Source: Caldifarciminota bacterium (GTDB taxonomy: Bacteria; Hydrothermota; Hydrothermia; B15-G9; WFZT01). Taken from it: a DNA stretch of 33,257 nucleotides. The position numbers and the translations under genes are program-made. The first letter of the stretch is position 1. Every line of letters begins with the position of its first letter. The stretch covers positions 1 through 33,257 of the forward strand of contig WFZT01000243.1 in NCBI GenBank assembly GCA_015489415.1, written 5' to 3'. Shown here piece after piece: positions 7,600-23,793 of this stretch. The notes below the pieces were generated by a model, which made no database searches, was not told where the DNA came from, and was given only the letters and a program-made list of their open reading frames with translations.

Positions 7600-8415
7600 C
7601 TACTTTTTGAGATGGTCTTTTACTGTCCTTGCAAGCTTTTCAAACTCTTCAAGGGAGAGGGTCTCTCCACGTCTGTCCAGAGAAATCCCTGATTCACTCT
7701 CAATTTTGTCGAATTCAAGCTTTCCAAAATTGTGCTTCAAAACAGTTTTGAGTTTCTTCCTTCTCCCACCAAATGAAAATCTGATCAGTTTTTCCAGAAA
7801 TTTCGGGTCACTCACCTCTATCGGAGGTTTCTCCCGCACCCTCATTTTCACAAAGGCCGAATCAACCTTTGGTATGGGTCTGAAACAGGTTTTGGGTATG
7901 TTGAAAAGAACCTCAATGTCGAAAAACATGGCAAGGTAAAGGGTTAGAGAGCCATACTCGCTTGTGTCAGGTGATGCCACCAATCTCCTTGCCACCTCTT
8001 TCTGGATAGTAAGATAAATTTCGGAGAAAAGCTCCCTATCCCTGATAAGCTTTTCAAGGATGGGGGTGGTGATGTAATAAGGGATATTAGAAACCACTTT
8101 GAGCGGAGCAGGAATCCCATGTTCTTTTAGCTTTTCCTTGAGGTCAGCCTTCAGGAAATCTTCTTCCACAACAATCAGCCGATCACCAATAAGTAAGCCG
8201 TATCTTTTTTTGAGCTCTGAGACCAGTTTTGGGTCAATTTCGAAAGCAATTAAATTGGCACCACGCATCAATAGAAATTCTGTGAGTGCCCCGCGTCCAG
8301 GGCCGATTTCAAGAATCCACTCCCCCTCCCTGACACCGGCATACCTTACGATTTTATCCAGTATATTTTTGTCCTTTAAAAAGACCTGGCCTAATTTTGA
8401 GCGTGGCTTCTTCAT
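7600..8415 (-). CDS. rsmA: 16S rRNA (adenine(1518)-N(6)/adenine(1519)-N(6))-dimethyltransferase
   Basis: 271 residues, close to the usual KsgA/RsmA length. The N-terminus has the family signature ([21 protein letters not shown]). The S-adenosylmethionine loop is LEIGPGRGALTE, with GPGRG near 38-42, and the catalytic motif is NIPYY (110-114). The C-terminal small helical domain includes FGGRRKKLKTVL. The enzyme dimethylates two adjacent adenines in the 3' hairpin of 16S rRNA late in small-subunit assembly. Its ATG overlaps the stop of the upstream M23 gene by ATGA, so it is the last gene of the minus-strand operon that begins near 13983. Confidence 0.95.
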   Translation of the reverse strand: MKKPRSKLGQVFLKDKNILDKIVRYAGVREGEWILEIGPGRGALTEFLLMRGANLIAFEIDPKLVSELKKRYGLLIGDRLIVVEEDFLKADLKEKLKEHGIPAPLKVVSNIPYYITTPILEKLIRDRELFSEIYLTIQKEVARRLVASPDTSEYGSLTLYLAMFFDIEVLFNIPKTCFRPIPKVDSAFVKMRVREKPPIEVSDPKFLEKLIRFSFGGRRKKLKTVLKHNFGKLEFDKIESESGISLDRRGETLSLEEFEKLARTVKDHLKK

Positions 8416-10094
8416 TTTATGACAATTGTGCCGCGCAGGTCTTTAACATTTCCGAGATTATCGGAAATTATGAGTCTGTAAGTATGCCTGCCCCTTTTGA
8501 TTTTAAATGGCGGCCAATAGACGAGCTTTTTCAGGTCAAAATAGTAATGAACCGGCTCCCATTTGCCGTCAAGATAAAATACTATGGAATCGCTTTTGAT
8601 ACCTGAAAGATTATCGTGAAGTTTAATTTCGATCTTCTTGCGTGAGATTGTGACAAATTTTGCCGTTGGAGGTCGAGTGTCCTTGAGCATTTTGAATGCC
8701 CCGAAGGAGATGACGTAACTTGTATCTTTGCCCACGAAATCCCATTTATTGTGCCTTTCGTCGTAGCTGAAAATTCCCACTTTTGGAGCTGAGTTTCTGG
8801 CAAGCATCATACGTCTATTGATGGGCAATACCTCGGGAAATATGTAGTCCTTACCCTTAAAATGCAGGTAATAAACGTTGGAGTTGAAAAGGAGTCCCTT
8901 ATCAATCTCCCCGATGGTGTAGGGACCGACCTTAACCGTGTCCCCATCAACACTTAGAGTGGCCTTTTGAATTTTAAGGGTATCTTTGCCTGAGACCAGA
9001 ATAATTTCGTTTTTACCGTCGAGTTTTCTGACACCGTTATTGAATTTTCTGACGACCTTGCCTTTCTTGAGTTCGAACTTTCCAATGGCATAAACACCGT
9101 CGGGTCTGAATTTTAGCCTGACAGTCGGGGTTTTAATCTGATAACCTGCGGTGTCCGGAGCATCTATTCCCTTTTTGATCTCAAAGCTTAGAGAGGTCGT
9201 ATGTCCGTAAAAATCTTTGACAACGAGCCTGTATTTCCCGAATTTTTTATAGCAACGAGGTGCCTTTAGCTGGAATGGATTGGTGAAATCTAAGGGATTA
9301 CACAGTCTGATCCACTTCTTTCCCCCTCTTGGGCCCTCAAAACTGTAAAAGACTCCGGCAGCCCTCTGATAGCTGTAATTGAATGTGTCAAATTCAACTG
9401 CATAAACAAGCTCTTTACCAGACCAGAGCTCAATTTTGTATGGATTTGTAACATTTTCACGTGCTACAGGATCGTAGGCGATGACTTCGATGATGAAAGG
9501 CTTCTTTGCGTGAAGGATGGCCCCATTTCTGGCAACTGATTGTGAATATATCTCGCCGTCCTTACAAGAGATGACCCTTAAAGAATCAACCGCCGGGAAT
9601 GTTGTATCTGGCAGGTGGTAGAGGAAGAATGGATTTACGGGCTCATTTTCCTTATTCCGGATTTCAAAATGAAGATGGGGAGTTCTCGTGCCAGTTTTAC
9701 CAGTCCAAGCCAGGATCTGCCCTTTTTTGAAGTAAAAAGTATCCTTCGGGAAATCGTTTACACTGTATTTTTTCTGTTTCTTTTGAATTTCGTAAACGTA
9801 GCGTTCGAGTTCGGGTCTAAATCTTGAGAGATGGGCATAAACGAAGATGTGTCCAGTACTGTCATCCTGAAAGTAAATGACCTTACCGTATCCCCAGTAG
9901 GATGCGCGTATGCGAACTACATGGCCATCTGCCGCAGCACGTACAGGATAACCTGTTTTACCGAGTGTCGAGAGGTCAACTCCGGCGTGAAACCGGAGGA
10001 TTCTAAACTCACCAAAACCAGCAGTTATGAGGGGCGGCAACCTGAGAGGAAACAGGAAGTTTGCCGCCATCAAAAGAACAAATAGATTAGACAT
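8412..10094 (-). CDS. Secreted M23-family (LytM) metallopeptidase with C-terminal Ig-like region
   Basis: 560 residues. A hydrophobic N-terminus ([17 protein letters not shown]) suggests export. The peptidase domain spans roughly residues 25-160 and keeps the zinc and catalytic motifs HAGVD (His36, Asp40), a His in YAHLS (His88) and HLHFE (His140, His142). A charged insert (about 95-120) separates strands of the domain. The remaining roughly 400 residues are beta-rich with repeated short strands and look like Ig-like or carbohydrate-binding modules, without an anchor I recognise. M23 enzymes cleave peptidoglycan cross-links in the periplasm. With all motif residues intact, this one may be active rather than an EnvC-like regulator. 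Its ATG lies inside the end of rho (8-nt overlap). Confidence 0.88.
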
Positions 10095-11358
10095 AAGAGA
10101 ATTTACTCTCCGTCAGGCTTTTAAGAAATTCCTGATTACTTACCGTCAGTCTCATCTTCTCCTGCAGGAACTCCATAGCCTCCACTGGATTCATCTCGGA
10201 GAGAACCTTTCTCAGGATCCATACCTTATTCAAAACGTCTTTGGGAAGGAGTAACTCTTCTCTCCTCGTACCGGATTTGTTGAGATCAATTGCTGGGAAG
10301 ATTCTCCTGTCCGCAAGTCTCCTATCGAGCACAAGTTCCATGTTACCGGTACCCTTAAACTCTTCGAAGATCACATCATCCATACGTGAACCCGTCTCGA
10401 TCAATGCTGTTGCAATAATTGTGAGGCTTCCACCTTCCTCGATGTTTCTTGCTGAGCCAAAGAACTTTTTGGGCTTAATCAGAGCTGTAGAGTCAATACC
10501 ACCTGTGAGAGTTCTACCAGAATGAGGAGTTACCACGTTATAGGCCCTCGCAAGACGTGTGAGTGAGTCAAGAAGGATGACCACATCCTTTCCAACTTCC
10601 ACAAGTCTCTTTGCCCTCTCAAGCACAATCTCAGCCACGTGTGTATGCTTTTCAGCAGGTTGGTCAAACGTGGAACTAATAACTTCTGCCTCGACCTTAC
10701 GTTTGAAGTCTGTAACCTCCTCTGGCCTTTCGTCAATCAGAAGGATGATGAGGTAAACTTCTGGATGGTTTCTCTTGATAGAGTTTGCAATCTGCTGGAG
10801 CAATACCGTTTTACCGGCTCTCGGGGGAGAGACAATAAGTCCACGCTGTCCTTTACCGATGGGAACAAAGAGGTCCACGATTCTCATGGATAGGTCTTCT
10901 GCGTCAGGTATCTCGAGGTTGATTTTCTCCGTTGGGTAGAAGGGAGTGAGTTTCTCGAAGCTTGGCCTGTTTCGAACTTCCTCAGGCGAAACTCCGTTCA
11001 CTGCCTCGATTTTTATGAGTGCTGGAAATTTCTCGCTATCCTTTGGAGGTCTCACAAGCCCGCTGATCTCGTCTCCGGGCCTCAAGCCAAACTTCTTGAT
11101 CTGCGAGGGAGAGACGTAAATATCCTGAGGGCTGGGATTGTAGTTGTACTCCTTGAGCCTCAGGAATCCGAATCCGCCCTCCTGATGGATTTCCAGCACA
11201 CCCTCCCTGAACTGTTTACCTTCTTTCTCCGCAAATGCGTCAAGGATTCTTTTAATTAATTCCTCTTTTCTGTAACTTGAGTAATTTACGATATTCAGTT
11301 GTTTGGCGATTTCGTAAAGCTCACCAATCTTTTTCTTCCTTAACTCCTGAAGAGTCAT
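10087..11358 (-). CDS. rho: Transcription termination factor Rho
   Basis: 423 residues. An N-terminal helical Rho_N domain (1-45) precedes the cold-shock-like RNA-binding domain (about 50-125, with [15 protein letters not shown]). The hexameric RecA-like ATPase follows. It has Walker A SPPRAGKT (177-184), Walker [16 protein letters not shown] (203-217), Q-loop [10 protein letters not shown] (265-274) and the R-loop region [20 protein letters not shown]. Rho loads on unstructured RNA and ends transcription. The paucity of T-tailed terminators in this window agrees with heavy use of Rho. An AAAGGAGG site lies about 9-10 nt before the ATG. A 33-nt gap separates it from the HD gene, and it probably shares that transcript. 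Confidence 0.97.
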
Positions 11359-11391: not shown

Positions 11392-12072
11392 TTAAATCAT
11401 TTTTGTGTCGTTTATAATCAGCTCAAATTTGCACCCCAATCTTTTTGCTGCCTTGGACGCGATGAGCATCCTTGAGAGAAAGATCTGAAAATACTCCATT
11501 ACAGGAGCAATCTCGGTGTCAATTTGAATTTTATAAGTGATGACCTTATTTTCCCTATCGACAATAATTTTTGAAAAAGTTGCTGCATAGTTTACCCTAT
11601 CATGTATATCTTCCTTGATGTTTCCGATGGGCCTAACTCTCGAGCGATGAACATCGGACTTGTCTGCGAGAATGAGGGCAGCAGCAATTGGTGATACGGG
11701 GACACCGTCTTCCTCATGATGGTTCCCAATTGCCATCATCACCTCAGCAAGCTCCTCGTAGTCCATGCCCATCTCTTCAAGGATTTTGTAAGCGAGAACT
11801 GCACCGGTCTGTGCATGATACTCCCTGTTGATTAGATTTCCCACATCGTGGAGATAGCCTGCCACTTCGGCAAGCTCTGCCATCCTTTCAGGGTACCCCA
11901 ACTCCCTTAAAATCTTTCCCGCTCTCTGAGCCACGAGGGAAACATGCCTCTCCCCATGCTCGGTGTACCCAAGAGCGGCCAGCGTCTCGTCAGCCTTTTT
12001 AACAAAGTGCCGAATTTTAGGGTTTTCTTTGAGTTCTTTCAACGTAATTCTTGTTTTTTCAATTACTTTCAT
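11392..12072 (-). CDS. HD-domain phosphohydrolase
   Basis: 226 residues. HD-superfamily metal ligands are visible in order: HGERH (His39, His43), the HD pair in YLHDVGN (His75, Asp76), His86, HH (118-119) and a downstream Asp in ADKSD (Asp137, Asp140). Such enzymes hydrolyse phosphomonoesters, phosphodiesters or nucleotides. The substrate cannot be read from the sequence, although LADKSDVHRSR with following R/K residues suggests a phosphate-rich ligand. The C-terminal 60 residues (KVITYKIQIDTEIAPVMEYF) resemble the extra domain of archaeal and thermophile HD proteins. The ATG overlaps the stop of the GGGP synthase gene by ATGA, so the two are probably translationally coupled. Confidence 0.85.
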   Translation of the reverse strand: MKVIEKTRITLKELKENPKIRHFVKKADETLAALGYTEHGERHVSLVAQRAGKILRELGYPERMAELAEVAGYLHDVGNLINREYHAQTGAVLAYKILEEMGMDYEELAEVMMAIGNHHEEDGVPVSPIAAALILADKSDVHRSRVRPIGNIKEDIHDRVNYAATFSKIIVDRENKVITYKIQIDTEIAPVMEYFQIFLSRMLIASKAAKRLGCKFELIINDTKMI

Positions 12073-12791
12073 AGCACCTCCCGGAGAATCTCTGGATTCT
12101 CCTCAAAAGCAGTACCTATGACCACATGTCTTGCACCTGAGGCAAGTGCGTTTTCCACATCCTCTTTAGTTCTAAGGCCACCACCAACAATAACCGGAAT
12201 AGAAACAGAATCCACAACGCTTTTAATCATCTCTGGTGGCACCGGGAATTTTGCCCCGGAGCCCGCCTCAAGATAAAGCAATTTCAGGCCGAGTAGCTCA
12301 CCAGCAACCGCATGGGCAATAGCTATATCTATCTTTTCACGTGGTATTGGTCTTGTGAAAGAGATATATTCAACCGATGTGTAGTTGCCTGATTCAATCA
12401 GCATGTAACCAGTTGGTATTACCTCAATTCCTGAATTTTTTAAGAAAACCGAAATTTTTACATGCTCTCCGATCAAAAAATCTGGATTCCTTCCACTGAT
12501 AAGTGAAGGCAATAAAAACGCATCTGCGTTTTTAGAGACCTGTAACGAATTGCCAGGAAATATGATAACAGGGTATTTTGAAACCTCTTTCACCCTCATA
12601 ACGAATTCATTGAAATCTTCCGACAGGAGAACACTTGTTCCGACGAGAATCGCCTTAACACGGTCATGACTGTTGATTTTCGCAATAAGTTCCTCCACCT
12701 CATTCCTGTTCACTTTGTCCGGGTCTATAAGAATCAGGACACCAGGATCAGTCGAGTCAGAAAATAACTTTTCGTAAACTGTTGACAACAT
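12069..12791 (-). CDS. Geranylgeranylglyceryl phosphate synthase (GGGPS/PcrB family)
   Basis: 240 residues with the TIM-barrel motifs of the family: LIDPDK (21-26), FPGN (78-81), IPTGYMLIESG (125-135), LEAGSGA (174-180), VGGGLRTKED (202-211) and VIGTAFEENP (224-233). The enzyme joins sn-glycerol-1-phosphate to a polyprenyl diphosphate, the first step to archaeal ether lipids. Some bacterial members are known, including heptaprenyl-using PcrB. The full-length IPTGYMLIE and AGSGA forms resemble the group II enzymes of archaea and FCB bacteria. ATG 12791 is chosen because GGAG lies 8 nt upstream. A TTG at 12806 would overlap that site. It overlaps the reductase gene by 35 nt. Chain-length preference cannot be read here. 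Confidence 0.92.
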   Translation of the reverse strand: MLSTVYEKLFSDSTDPGVLILIDPDKVNRNEVEELIAKINSHDRVKAILVGTSVLLSEDFNEFVMRVKEVSKYPVIIFPGNSLQVSKNADAFLLPSLISGRNPDFLIGEHVKISVFLKNSGIEVIPTGYMLIESGNYTSVEYISFTRPIPREKIDIAIAHAVAGELLGLKLLYLEAGSGAKFPVPPEMIKSVVDSVSIPVIVGGGLRTKEDVENALASGARHVVIGTAFEENPEILREVL

Positions 12792-13983
12792 CACCTCCAC
12801 TCCCAAGAAGAAGGCTGAGTATCTCTTTTGAATTTTTTACACTGTTAAAAAAGAGCTCACTCAGGTTTAGCGTTTGCAGGTTTTTACCGGCGAAGAGTTT
12901 TTTTAGAACCCTGTATAGTTTAATTATCCGCTCATCTGTATAGTTTTTCAAATAGTCTTTGAGAATTAATGAAATTTTATAGTCAAGTCCGATTTCGTTC
13001 CAGTAATTTTTTTCATATTTTTTGAGAAATTTTTCACTCAGGTCGTCCTTTTTGATAGCCTCGGCTCCGACTTCACCGGCAATTTTACCGCTGATTATCG
13101 CAGTAGCAATGCCTCCACCTGTGGCAGGGTCAGCAAGGCGCGCCGCATCTCCAACCACCAGAAGGTTATCTGTATAAATCTTTTTTAAGTTTCCTCCTAC
13201 AGGTACCACCCCCCTGAGCCATCCTATGATTCTTGCATTCGGATAAAATTCACTGATGATAGTTTTTAAATAATCCATGGGGTCTTTATTGGTTTCAACG
13301 GTTACCCCCACTCCGAGGTTGGCAAGCCCGCGACCTTTGGGGAAAACCCAGGCGTAGCCGGTGGGTGAATATTTTTCAGAGAATAGAAAATCCATTCTGT
13401 TTGATGGAATCTTCTCATCGTAAACAAGAAACTGAGCGCATTTGTGGACATCCTGCTCGGAAACCTCCATGTTGAGGCCAAGCGATGTGGCTACAGCTGA
13501 GCCCGGCCCATCTGCACCAATCAGCAAATCTGTGAAAATTTCATGTACTTTCCCGTCTTTTAACACTTCAATTTTTATGCGTCCGTTATCACGCTCCGCC
13601 CTCAGGAATTTTGTACTGACAGAAAGCTCTGCACCTGCTGCCGCCGCCTTTTCAGCAAGGGTTCGGTCAAATATCTTCCTCTCAAGTACAACACTCATAT
13701 CGTCTTTATATACCTCAAAGTAATCTAAGTCCGGGGCAATGATTCTAAGAGTATCAATTTTTGAAGCAATGAACTTCTCCGGGTTCTCGATTCCGAAAAT
13801 ATTTTTTGTGAGATTAAGCGTGTTTACTGAGATACCTTCTGCGCAGAATATGTCTTTTCCAACTTCACGTTGTTTCTCAATTAAAAGCGTTTCAATACCA
13901 TTTTTTGCAAGGGTCAAAGCGGCCGCGGATCCTGCAGGGCCAGCTCCGACAACTATTGCAGGATATGAGTTTTTAAGGTTCAT
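12757..13983 (-). CDS. Geranylgeranyl reductase family FAD-dependent oxidoreductase
   Basis: 408 residues. It has an N-terminal dinucleotide fold with GAGPAG (13-18), a second FAD motif GADGPGS (156-162), and the family's VVGDAARLADPATGGGIATAI block (266-286). The substrate-pocket motif GYAWVFPKG is at 199-207, and FCAEG carries Cys47 in the place of the conserved Cys of archaeal digeranylgeranylglycerophospholipid reductases. Such enzymes saturate the double bonds of geranylgeranyl chains on lipids, chlorophyll or quinones. The direct overlap with a GGGP synthase gene favours a lipid role. ATG 13983 has a GGAG about 11 nt upstream, and the in-frame GTG at 13995 is less likely. It is the first gene of the operon. 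Confidence 0.88.
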   Translation of the reverse strand: MNLKNSYPAIVVGAGPAGSAAALTLAKNGIETLLIEKQREVGKDIFCAEGISVNTLNLTKNIFGIENPEKFIASKIDTLRIIAPDLDYFEVYKDDMSVVLERKIFDRTLAEKAAAAGAELSVSTKFLRAERDNGRIKIEVLKDGKVHEIFTDLLIGADGPGSAVATSLGLNMEVSEQDVHKCAQFLVYDEKIPSNRMDFLFSEKYSPTGYAWVFPKGRGLANLGVGVTVETNKDPMDYLKTIISEFYPNARIIGWLRGVVPVGGNLKKIYTDNLLVVGDAARLADPATGGGIATAIISGKIAGEVGAEAIKKDDLSEKFLKKYEKNYWNEIGLDYKISLILKDYLKNYTDERIIKLYRVLKKLFAGKNLQTLNLSELFFNSVKNSKEILSLLLGSGGDVVNSLRKVIF

Positions 13984-14057
13984 TCCTTTTCCCACTCCGA
14001 TTTTTAGGGGTTATGCCTTTTCCCAGGAAAGATGTATCCATAATGGGGAGTTTGTAT

Positions 14058-18543: not shown

Positions 18544-18576
18544 TTGACTACTGCCTCATTAATTCAGCCTTATAAT
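18544..18576 (+). promoter_or_regulatory. Promoter of the ttuA-like gene, leaderless spacing
   Basis: TATAAT at 18571-18576 is 9 nt before the ATG at 18586, leaving no room for a Shine-Dalgarno sequence. TTGACT at 18544-18549 could be the -35 box but the 21-nt spacer is long. Confidence 0.5.
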
Positions 18577-18585
18577 ACAGGGCCT

Positions 18586-19485
18586 ATGAAATGTAAGATT
18601 TGCGGAAAGGAAGCCATAGTTAAGCTAAGGTCATACAACCTCGCCCTCTGCCGCGAGCACTATATTGAATTTGTCAAAAGAAGGGTGGAAAAGGGCATCA
18701 AAAAGTTCAAGATGGTGCGAAAAGATGAGCGCATACTGGTCGCAGTGTCCGGAGGGAAGGATTCCATAGTTCTGTGGCATGTTTTAAACGAGCTCGGCTA
18801 CGATACAACAGGGTACTTCCTCAATCTCGGAATTGAGGGATTTTCAGATGAGTCTCAGGAAGTTGCCCAAAAATTTGCCGATATGTTTGGACTCACACTA
18901 AAAGTTGAGTATTTAAGAGACGTTCTGGGTGTTGGCATTCCAGAGTTATCAAAAATTTCAAGAGGTAAACCCTGTTCGCTCTGTGGCATGATAAAAAGAT
19001 ATCTGATCAACCGGGCAGGTCTTGAGTTCGACGCCGTAGCCACAGGTCATAACCTTGATGATGAATCTTCTGTACTTTTTGGAAATATCTTGCACTGGCA
19101 AACCGAGTATCTCGAACGGCAGTATCCAGTCCTACCCCGGGACCGCACACTTGCAAGGAAGATCAAGCCCCTGATTTTACTTACAAACTATGAGATTAAG
19201 CTATATGCTGAGGTTCTCAACTTACCTCACATCGTGGATAAATGCCCATTCTCCGGTGGAGCTACTACACATTTTTACAAGGGAATTCTTGAGACCATAG
19301 AAAATGAAATGCCGGGAACAAAGGTAAGGTTTTTACTGGGCTTTTTTGAAAATAAGGCAGGGTTTAAGGTGCCGCAAACGCGACACCTTAAACCCTGCAA
19401 AAAATGTGGCTATCTAACTACTGCAGAAGTTTGTTCCTTCTGCAGACTTAAGGAAAAGGTCGAAAATCAGTTCAACTTACGCTGA
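18586..19485 (+). CDS. ttuA: tRNA 2-thiolation enzyme, TtuA/Ncs6-type PP-loop ATPase
   Basis: 299 residues. An N-terminal zinc knuckle (Cys3, Cys6, Cys22, His25) and a C-terminal one (Cys271, Cys274, Cys283, Cys286) flank the PP-loop domain with SGGKDS (55-60). Three internal Cys (130, 133 and 220) lie where TtuA binds its 4Fe-4S cluster. TtuA adds sulfur to C2 of U54 (T54) in the T-loop of tRNA, which stabilises tRNA at high temperature. The related Ncs6/NcsA acts on U34. A bacterium with this subfamily is often a thermophile. The TTG at 18544 is rejected as start because it is part of the putative promoter. The 3' end overlaps the convergent perR-like gene by 19 nt. Confidence 0.9.
   Translation: MKCKICGKEAIVKLRSYNLALCREHYIEFVKRRVEKGIKKFKMVRKDERILVAVSGGKDSIVLWHVLNELGYDTTGYFLNLGIEGFSDESQEVAQKFADMFGLTLKVEYLRDVLGVGIPELSKISRGKPCSLCGMIKRYLINRAGLEFDAVATGHNLDDESSVLFGNILHWQTEYLERQYPVLPRDRTLARKIKPLILLTNYEIKLYAEVLNLPHIVDKCPFSGGATTHFYKGILETIENEMPGTKVRFLLGFFENKAGFKVPQTRHLKPCKKCGYLTTAEVCSFCRLKEKVENQFNLR
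19357..19398 (-). terminator. Perfect 15-bp inverted repeat inside ttuA, probable terminator for the perR-like gene
   Basis: Arms 19357-19371 and 19384-19398 are perfectly complementary, and three more pairs (19373-19375 with 19380-19382) extend into the loop. On the minus strand it lies about 70 nt after the perR-like stop and is followed by CTTATTTTC, so it can act as that gene's terminator while coding for ttuA on the other strand. Confidence 0.55.
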
Positions 19486-22011: not shown

Positions 22012-23793
22012 TTAGTTTCCGGGTTTGTTTATAGTGGTATTTTTAAAGAAATTTTGAACATCTTGATTTACTGATTTCCCTTTATAATAATTATCAAAGT
22101 CAAATCCATCGGTCCGTTTATAGTTAGCATTATGCCTTTGATTTTGCAACCATGTTTCAAATTCAGCCCATTTCTTTCTAGCCTTTTCGACCGCCAAAGA
22201 CACAAGATTTTCCAGGTTATTTGGTGAAATCTCATAAGGCTCAGGCACAAGATATTTTGAAGCCGCTACTATTGACAATTTCCCATATCTCAAACCACTG
22301 CCCCAATCACTATCCATACTCTCTTTGCGCAATCGAGCCAATATTAGAGCTGCAAACAACATTACTTTATAATTTTCACCTGTGCCCATAATTTTCTTAA
22401 AAATCTTATCCTTGAATAATTGGTTTTTGCTTCGGCGTGCATCACCAGGATGTCCCAGAAACGCCCAATAGGCTTGAAGCAAATCAACACGACCAATTAT
22501 TCTATTTTTGTCAACATAGCCTCTCTCTATAGCTGTATAGAATTCTCCTCGTTTTCTCTCAAGCAAATATCCAAACTCCTGAAAGATCCGTTTTTGTACC
22601 TGAATCAAAACTTCATCATTGGAACGTCGATCGGCTTCTTCTACTTTACTTTGCTGATTAGTGGCATTTGATACTCCTGAAATAAATTCCCTTACACTTT
22701 TATCATCTAAATCAGAGGGTATAACTATCGCTCTCAAAAGGACTTCTTTTCCTTTCATTAAATTGCGTTTTGATGCATCTTCATAAATTTCACTTAGGAC
22801 ATAAGCTGTTTGGCCTCCATTGATAATTTGCGGCTTCTCTAAAATTACCTGACCTCTATTCTTTCTGCCGGTTGTTTCGCTAATCATAAATTCGCTGCAC
22901 AGCATAGTGATACCATTGTTATAGATTGCAAAATCGTTCGTGTTTGAATTAAGTATTCCATCTCTAATAGCTTTGTTAACTTGATTTCTTGAAAGACTCA
23001 GGTAGTTTCTAGGATTGAATTTTAATATTGCATTTTTATACTTGGATAATACCCGACCAATTTCCTCAACTGGTACAAAAACCACCCTAACTTGGAACTC
23101 GCCTTGTTGGGTTTTGACGGTTTGTCTAAGCACTGATTGTTCCTTATTTTGCAAGTTAAGTTCTATTACTATTTCCTCAGGGTCATAGAAGTCGCTGGCG
23201 CAAAACGGAAATAATATCTCCTCGTAAATACGTTCATAGTCATAAAACTCGAAGGGCTCATTCTCTCCCAATCCTAACAGTCTTCTGATCTGGTGATCAT
23301 TGTACTTTTGTGCCCCTCCTAAAATTACGATTTTGTATATATACCTTGCTTGATCTGGAAGTCTACTCCATTTTTCTTGTAATCGCTTTATCTTTTCATT
23401 AAACTCTCTTTTGTTGCCTGCTCTATCGTAATAAGTGGTGCTACCCTGTAATATAGCCCCGACCTCCATTTTTATTAATTCTTCCGCTAAGATGCTCCTC
23501 CGGGTAACAACATTTTCACGGAATTTAGACTGAACAAGATATAATATCTTGCGTCTTTCATCAAAATAATATGCATCTACACCTCCATCATCTGGGCCAT
23601 CAGTGATAAAATTATGTCTAGCTTCGAAATCAGTCTCTCCAAACTTTACAAGAAGATACAGGTGAATTAATGCCTTTGATCTTGCACGTTGTGTCCCTTC
23701 ATAATCTTCGCTGTGATAAGATCTATAATGATTTGGAGCCTCATTACGAAGACGATCAAGTACATTTATTAATAATTTATGTCTGTAGTCCAT
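22012..23793 (-). CDS. AIPR-family anti-phage protein with PD-(D/E)xK-like N-terminus
   Basis: 593 residues. Residues about 257-335 carry the AIPR (abortive infection phage resistance) core: LKFNPRNYLS, YNNGITMLCSEF (291-302) and QIINGGQTAYVL (322-333). The N-terminus has a nuclease-like pattern, with acidic residues in GETDFEARHNF, then GGVDA (Asp73) and VQSK (Gln88, Lys90), as in PD-(D/E)xK enzymes. The family is tied to phage defence by abortive infection, and the nuclease reading is inference from motifs. The gene is visibly more AT-rich than its neighbours, has a strong AAAGGAG site unlike several leaderless genes here, and stands alone between AT-rich gaps. Recent transfer is likely. 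No methylase or partner is adjacent. Confidence 0.85.
   Translation of the reverse strand: MDYRHKLLINVLDRLRNEAPNHYRSYHSEDYEGTQRARSKALIHLYLLVKFGETDFEARHNFITDGPDDGGVDAYYFDERRKILYLVQSKFRENVVTRRSILAEELIKMEVGAILQGSTTYYDRAGNKREFNEKIKRLQEKWSRLPDQARYIYKIVILGGAQKYNDHQIRRLLGLGENEPFEFYDYERIYEEILFPFCASDFYDPEEIVIELNLQNKEQSVLRQTVKTQQGEFQVRVVFVPVEEIGRVLSKYKNAILKFNPRNYLSLSRNQVNKAIRDGILNSNTNDFAIYNNGITMLCSEFMISETTGRKNRGQVILEKPQIINGGQTAYVLSEIYEDASKRNLMKGKEVLLRAIVIPSDLDDKSVREFISGVSNATNQQSKVEEADRRSNDEVLIQVQKRIFQEFGYLLERKRGEFYTAIERGYVDKNRIIGRVDLLQAYWAFLGHPGDARRSKNQLFKDKIFKKIMGTGENYKVMLFAALILARLRKESMDSDWGSGLRYGKLSIVAASKYLVPEPYEISPNNLENLVSLAVEKARKKWAEFETWLQNQRHNANYKRTDGFDFDNYYKGKSVNQDVQNFFKNTTINKPGN

Follow-up and report, generated by a model that had tools for sequence, protein, structure and literature searches.

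In the debate on the lipid divide, it is still open whether a mixed archaeal/bacterial membrane exists naturally in any living bacterium, and the candidates published to date from the FCB group are mostly without a source of glycerol-1-phosphate (G1P). The locus analyzed here raises this question for another bacterial lineage, as genes for a geranylgeranylglyceryl phosphate synthase (GGGPS) and a geranylgeranyl reductase (GGR) overlap within a bacterial operon. The window, that is, the whole stretch of DNA analyzed (33,257 nt), is contig C243 of genome G000, a metagenome-assembled genome (MAG) of an uncultured bacterium of candidate division WOR-3, whose phylum name at NCBI is now Caldifarciminota. 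The assembly has 289 contigs totalling 2.57 Mb, with completeness estimated at 97.9% and contamination at 8.2%; about 0.7 Mb of it was gone through one contig at a time. Comparisons were made with three congeners (G001-G003) and with other WOR-3 families, which are denoted by f-numbers. The window carries the following features:

12757..13983, minus strand: FAD protein of the geranylgeranyl reductase family, 408 aa, at the head of the operon (ORF; TIGR02032; NF041160 as best equivalog; Pfam GGR_cat; PDB 3oz2)
12757..12791, minus strand: 35-nt overlap between the 3' end of the reductase gene and the 5' end of the GGGPS gene (sequence)
12069..12791, minus strand: group II GGGPS, 240 aa (PF01884; NF003198; TIGR01769; PDB 4jej; tree; residues; AlphaFold2)
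11392..12072, minus strand: HD-domain protein, 4-nt overlap with GGGPS (PF01966; synteny)
10087..11358, minus strand: transcription termination factor Rho (PF07497; PF07498; synteny)
8412..10094, minus strand: protein with a peptidase domain of the M23 family, further downstream in the operon (PF01551)
7600..8415, minus strand: RsmA/KsgA 16S rRNA dimethyltransferase, end of the run (PF00398; TIGR00755 above cut-off)

The GGGPS and reductase genes lie where the original prediction had placed them, and all the motifs quoted for them occur in the translations; because curated family models exceed their cut-offs, neither is a chance ORF. The reductase gene runs from an ATG at 13983 (upstream GTG at 13995) to 12757, and the GGGPS gene from an ATG at 12791, preceded by GGAGGTG (upstream TTG at 12806), to 12069. 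Measured from the GGGPS ATG at 12791 to the reductase stop at 12757, the predicted 35-nt overlap is borne out by the sequence, and it is consistent with translational coupling of the two genes. The spacings along the operon from the reductase gene to rsmA are -35, -4, +33, -8 and -4 nt. Pfam and NCBIfam matches agree with the predicted operon with rho, an M23 peptidase gene and rsmA, with the addition of the HD-domain gene between GGGPS and rho, which the prediction had left unnamed and which occupies an equivalent position in most syntenic WOR-3 loci. In tblastn searches of relatives, the order reductase-GGGPS-HD-rho was found again in families f1, f6, f8 and f11, and the tblastn coordinates showed similar reductase/GGGPS overlaps in f1, f6 and part of f8. 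Family f3 has a related order, but with a weaker reductase and without the HD gene. Among 41 relatives, GGR and GGGPS were associated with p = 5e-4.

The GGGPS scores above the curated cut-offs of PF01884 (121.9 bits versus 23.9), NF003198 (253 versus 247), TIGR01769 (164.9 versus 161.6) and TIGR01768 (151 versus 113), and reaches 54.5 bits, under a cut-off of 169, with NF003199, which from its name we take to be the Bacillus-type (PcrB) model. Among solved structures, its best match is 4jej from Flavobacterium (E = 1.3e-59). In a tree of 80 rows, in which only four are reference sequences (that of A. fulgidus was verified to be identical to 2f6u), the GGGPS groups with WOR-3 and Bacteroidetes sequences and 4jej and adjoins Methanothermobacter 4mm1, and a 100/100 branch splits these group II enzymes from A. 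fulgidus group I and PcrB; the comparison with PcrB that had been proposed as a check is thereby answered in favor of group II. One MAG assigned to candidate division WOR-3 has a GGGPS with 100% identity to that of the window, and in two further ones the identity is 78-87%. The window GGGPS keeps the Mg-binding Asp23, Tyr129, the YLE of LLYLEAGSG and Thr227 in the last phosphate loop, the residues of GGGPS that bind Mg (Asp) and G1P (Tyr, Tyr and Glu) being named in PMC9385802. At the group II limiter position, Val85 corresponds to Val86 in the Mth enzyme, which may hint at the use of C20 (GGPP). The AlphaFold2 model (pLDDT 92) has a TM-score of 0.92 to 4jej versus about 0.78 to PcrB in Foldseek. 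Compared with 4jej, the group IIb GGGPS of Flavobacterium johnsoniae, the fold and active-site residues are alike, whereas sequence identity is about 45% and Tyr replaces Arg where the Mth enzyme has Trp141. Activity with G1P has been demonstrated for Bacteroidetes homologues (PMC7852524).

As the original prediction noted, neither DGGGPS, the UbiA-type enzyme for the second prenyl transfer, nor a G1P dehydrogenase (G1PDH) is encoded in the window, and both were sought in the rest of the genome and in relatives. A G1PDH homologue (AraM/EgsA) was found in G000 on contig C107 (L120:7396-8439). It matches NF002022 over the full length (226 bits, under the cut-off of 413) and the solved 4rgq with E = 1e-43, and retains the GD, SGSEH..SHxLD and LHG motifs. 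A second PF13685 match, on contig C63, was rejected as an ordinary Fe-ADH. The search for DGGGPS succeeded in the relatives but not in G000 itself: an archaeal-type DGGGPS is present in 3/3 congeneric genomes and was not found in the G000 assembly. G000 has three UbiA genes (MqnP-like, MenA-like and one termed UbiA-3), the first two of which were ruled out as DGGGPS by those family likenesses. A fourth UbiA gene occurs in the congeners, with 168-173 bits against PRK12884 and 124-134 bits against PRK12882, the model for GGGP geranylgeranyltransferase; like the G1PDH homologues, the DGGGPS homologues score under the NCBIfam equivalog cut-offs. In G003, DGGGPS is located between an AIRS-domain gene and GDPD-queA. 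Contig C76 of G000 matches the G003 GDPD-queA at 94.6% identity and ends within GDPD, 346 nt short of the expected DGGGPS end. Because C76 stops inside GDPD beside the expected site, the gap in G000 is most simply read, by synteny with the sister genome, as an assembly break behind which DGGGPS would lie. In the window's genus, this glycerophosphodiester phosphodiesterase gene (GDPD) overlaps the DGGGPS end (L260-L262). Elsewhere, an SPFH/Band 7 gene lies directly upstream of DGGGPS in f2, f8 and f11 (L266, L275, L277, L278), and metallophosphoesterase and CvpA genes lie downstream of it in f2 and f11.

The further search for a CDP-archaeol synthase (CarS, PF01864) returned no match above the cut-off in 17 WOR-3 genomes, with archaeal controls positive, and PlsY is present in 17/17 WOR-3 genomes checked. 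Three PlsY-family genes occur in G000 (C72, C85, C25), and several relatives have two to four.

The distribution of these genes was compared across 147 WOR-3 genomes and, at the family level, across 33 units, with f24-f28 pooled as one. The E cut-offs were chosen by eye (1e-20 for G1PDH and UbiA-3, 1e-30 for DGGGPS), and three partial matches at contig ends (two G1PDH, one UbiA-3) were counted as present. Counted as both genes, GGGPS only, partner only and neither, the genomes divide 80/9/9/49 for GGGPS and DGGGPS (p = 1.6e-20; 33 family units, p = 6e-5), 81/8/7/51 for GGGPS and UbiA-3 (33 family units, p = 3e-4) and 60/29/10/48 for GGGPS and G1PDH (p = 1.6e-9; 33 family units, p = 0.013), the genome-level p values (1e-9 to 1e-23) being inflated because genomes share ancestry. 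GGGPS and DGGGPS thus occur in one genome in G001-G003 plus 77 other WOR-3 genomes, and GGGPS, DGGGPS and G1PDH are all present in 56 of the 147. A clear G1PDH was not found in families f6, f12, f34 and f37 despite the presence of GGGPS and DGGGPS. In family f4 (L160, L161), the usual HD-rho context holds GGGPS homologues that have diverged strongly, with 33-37% identity and a long branch. No GGR adjoins them, and DGGGPS and G1PDH were not found in these genomes; this f4 homologue is possibly a degenerating or repurposed copy.

We therefore consider it probable that the two window genes provide the ether-bond and saturation steps of an archaeal-type isoprenoid ether-lipid pathway widespread in WOR-3. 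Because other key pathway genes lie elsewhere in the genome or in its closest relatives, the organism is likely to produce archaeal-like lipids in addition to the usual bacterial ones. The prediction that it may make and saturate G1P prenyl ethers is thus supported at the gene level, and the opposite outcome, a PcrB-like GGGPS and a menaquinone- or chlorophyll-type reductase with no other ether-lipid gene, did not occur. Building on the genes, families, key residues, operon, synteny and co-occurrence observed, GGGPS would condense G1P, supplied by the G1PDH homologue on C107, with geranylgeranyl-PP to GGGP, forming the first ether bond, its activity, the C20 chain length and the G1P stereochemistry being predicted. 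The UbiA-type DGGGPS encoded by the congeners, whose gene is expected just past the C76 end in G000, would add the second chain, and GGR would saturate the chains, saturation and abundance of the ether lipid likewise being predictions. Headgroup activation would fall to bacterial enzymes, because CarS was not found. PlsY is also encoded, and therefore a mixed ester/ether lipid pool in the membrane or envelope is likely.

The alternative that survives best is that GGGPS serves to make a minor lipid with a special purpose, such as a glycolipid, an anchor or a dephosphorylated monoether, and no membrane phospholipid. Such a product has a precedent in the heptaprenylglycerol of Bacillus PcrB (PMC13400652, PMC9179154), several WOR-3 GGGPS genes adjoin nucleotide-sugar genes, and PlsY without a detectable CarS in the 17 genomes would suit it as well. 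We nevertheless regard it as unlikely, as the near one-to-one co-occurrence of DGGGPS with GGGPS indicates a diether, and a bacterial CDP-DAG synthase can stand in for CarS, as argued in PMC7852524.

The G1P itself has another use in WOR-3, perhaps a CDP-glycerol-like one, because G1PDH occurs without GGGPS in seven f19 genomes and the f20 genome and has nucleotidyltransferase neighbors. It adjoins an NTP-transferase gene in f1, f2, f11 and f19, and in G000 it follows one (L120:6702-8439); in the three f19 genomes read (L222, L223, L224), which have no GGGPS, it stands together with two genes, one for an NTP-transferase and one of the CDP-alcohol phosphatidyltransferase family. These pairs could mean that the G1P goes into a polymer or headgroup of the CDP-glycerol type and that GGGPS takes little of it or takes G3P, a promiscuity of GGGPS reported in the literature. 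This seems improbable to us, as outside f19/f20 almost every genome with G1PDH also has GGGPS, and the polymer or headgroup use is compatible with an ether-lipid use.

For the ether-lipid pathway that we favor, the reductase is placed by its family matches and its operon. It exceeds the cut-offs of TIGR02032 (215.6 bits versus 158.8) and PF22578 GGR_cat (62.5 versus 27), and its best PDB match is 3oz2, the DGGGPL reductase of Thermoplasma acidophilum (E = 4e-50), with which it shares the catalytic Cys (FCAEG), PxxYxWxFP and RxxFD. It differs from the 3oz2 class in scoring far under the DGGGPL-reductase equivalog cut-offs (NF041160, 194 versus 780 bits; NF041080, 142 versus 580), and it also scores under those of MenJ (83 versus 700) and ChlP (68.5 versus 505). 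By these scores, the protein is closest to the archaeal DGGGP-lipid reductases and would behave like them without having equivalog status, and its substrate is read from the operon; its AlphaFold2 model was poor (pLDDT 53) and was left out of the analysis. That it instead works on menaquinone, polyprenols or free GGPP and shares the operon by coincidence is doubtful. Menaquinone is a plausible substrate in that G000 has the MqnP-like prenyltransferase adjoining UbiX/UbiD-like genes, and the archaeal GGR paralogue AF_0648 reduces menaquinone (PMC10821996). However, the scores to the DGGGPL reductase models are above those to MenJ and ChlP, and the coding overlap with GGGPS and the adjacency kept across WOR-3 families argue against a coincidence. 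A binning artefact, in which a contig of archaeal or other origin had ended up in a contaminated MAG, can practically be dismissed despite the contamination estimate for G000, because the reductase-GGGPS-HD-rho order recurs in other WOR-3 families and independent MAGs; moreover, Rho is 94-100% identical within the genus, the GGGPS lies inside WOR-3 in the tree, and the operon neighbors are bacterial.

The third UbiA protein of G000, UbiA-3 (contig C148, L123:6436-7374; orthologues L162-L191), was a first candidate for DGGGPS, proposed from its co-occurrence with GGGPS and a nearby prenyl-diphosphate synthase. It was dropped, as its profiles are nearer ChlG and other unassigned prenyltransferases and the sister genomes hold a better archaeal-type DGGGPS. 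Profile scans gave no close match of UbiA-3 to function-named models. With the consensus NQIxDRESDRIN ... NTTIPDIxGD, it occurs in 88/147 WOR-3 genomes, nearly always with DGGGPS and GGGPS, and its family-level association with DGGGPS (24/1/0/8, p = 6.5e-7) is tighter than the GGGPS pairings. In f2, f6 and f11, it lies near an ispG-like gene, named from sequence rather than by a profile. More tentatively, the membrane of much of WOR-3 could be mixed and heterochiral, with G1P supplied by a dedicated route, saturation by the operon-coupled GGR and an extra isoprenoid step by UbiA-3.

Archaeal-like lipid genes in FCB bacteria are already known (Villanueva 2021, Coleman 2019), as the original prediction stated, but the host here is WOR-3, outside the classical FCB phyla. 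A Cloacimonetes GGGPS yielded GGGP in vitro, GGGPS and DGGGPS together led to unsaturated PG-archaeol in E. coli, and the Cloacimonetes MAGs are without G1PDH and CarS (Villanueva 2021, PMC7852524). That archaeal-like pathway and the one proposed here have in common GGGPS, DGGGPS and GGR beside bacterial ester-lipid genes, with no CarS (PMC7852524). In contrast to Cloacimonetes, the window genome adds a G1PDH homologue and belongs to the phylum WOR-3, and GGGPS is paired with GGR in the rho operon, whereas in Cloacimonetes it adjoins DGGGPS; at the WOR-3 loci, DGGGPS instead adjoins GDPD or SPFH genes. The heptaprenylglycerol pathway of Bacillus (AraM/PcrB) likewise joins a bacterial G1PDH to a GGGPS-family enzyme; however, Bacillus PcrB is a C35-using group Ib enzyme whose product is a monoether, whereas the window GGGPS belongs to group II and WOR-3 also encode DGGGPS. 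Coleman 2019 surveyed 52 phyla, with WOR-3 among them (Table 1), and its text names only Firmicutes, Actinobacteria and Fibrobacteres as having all three genes per genome. No report working out the ether-lipid genes of WOR-3 was found in the literature searched, which was mostly without subscription papers and preprints, and two 2025 papers on WOR-3, one of them on strain sy37 (PMC12285271), do not discuss ether lipids. Three points are new relative to the literature compared: the occurrence of G1PDH alongside GGGPS and DGGGPS in WOR-3, the conservation of the operon, and the co-distributed, unassigned UbiA protein. Because WOR-3 has a cultured strain, sy37 (PMC12285271), and many of its genomes combine GGGPS, DGGGPS, GGR and G1PDH homologues, the mixed-membrane question is directly testable, given a gene-bearing strain.

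Elsewhere in the window, an AIPR-family relative of MzaE from the MZA anti-phage system is encoded at 22012-23793, the region of lowest GC in the window (0.354 versus about 0.44), and a TtuA-type tRNA 2-thiolation protein encoded at 18544-19485 reaches 315 bits with the TtuA model from Pyrococcus, whose cut-off is 450.
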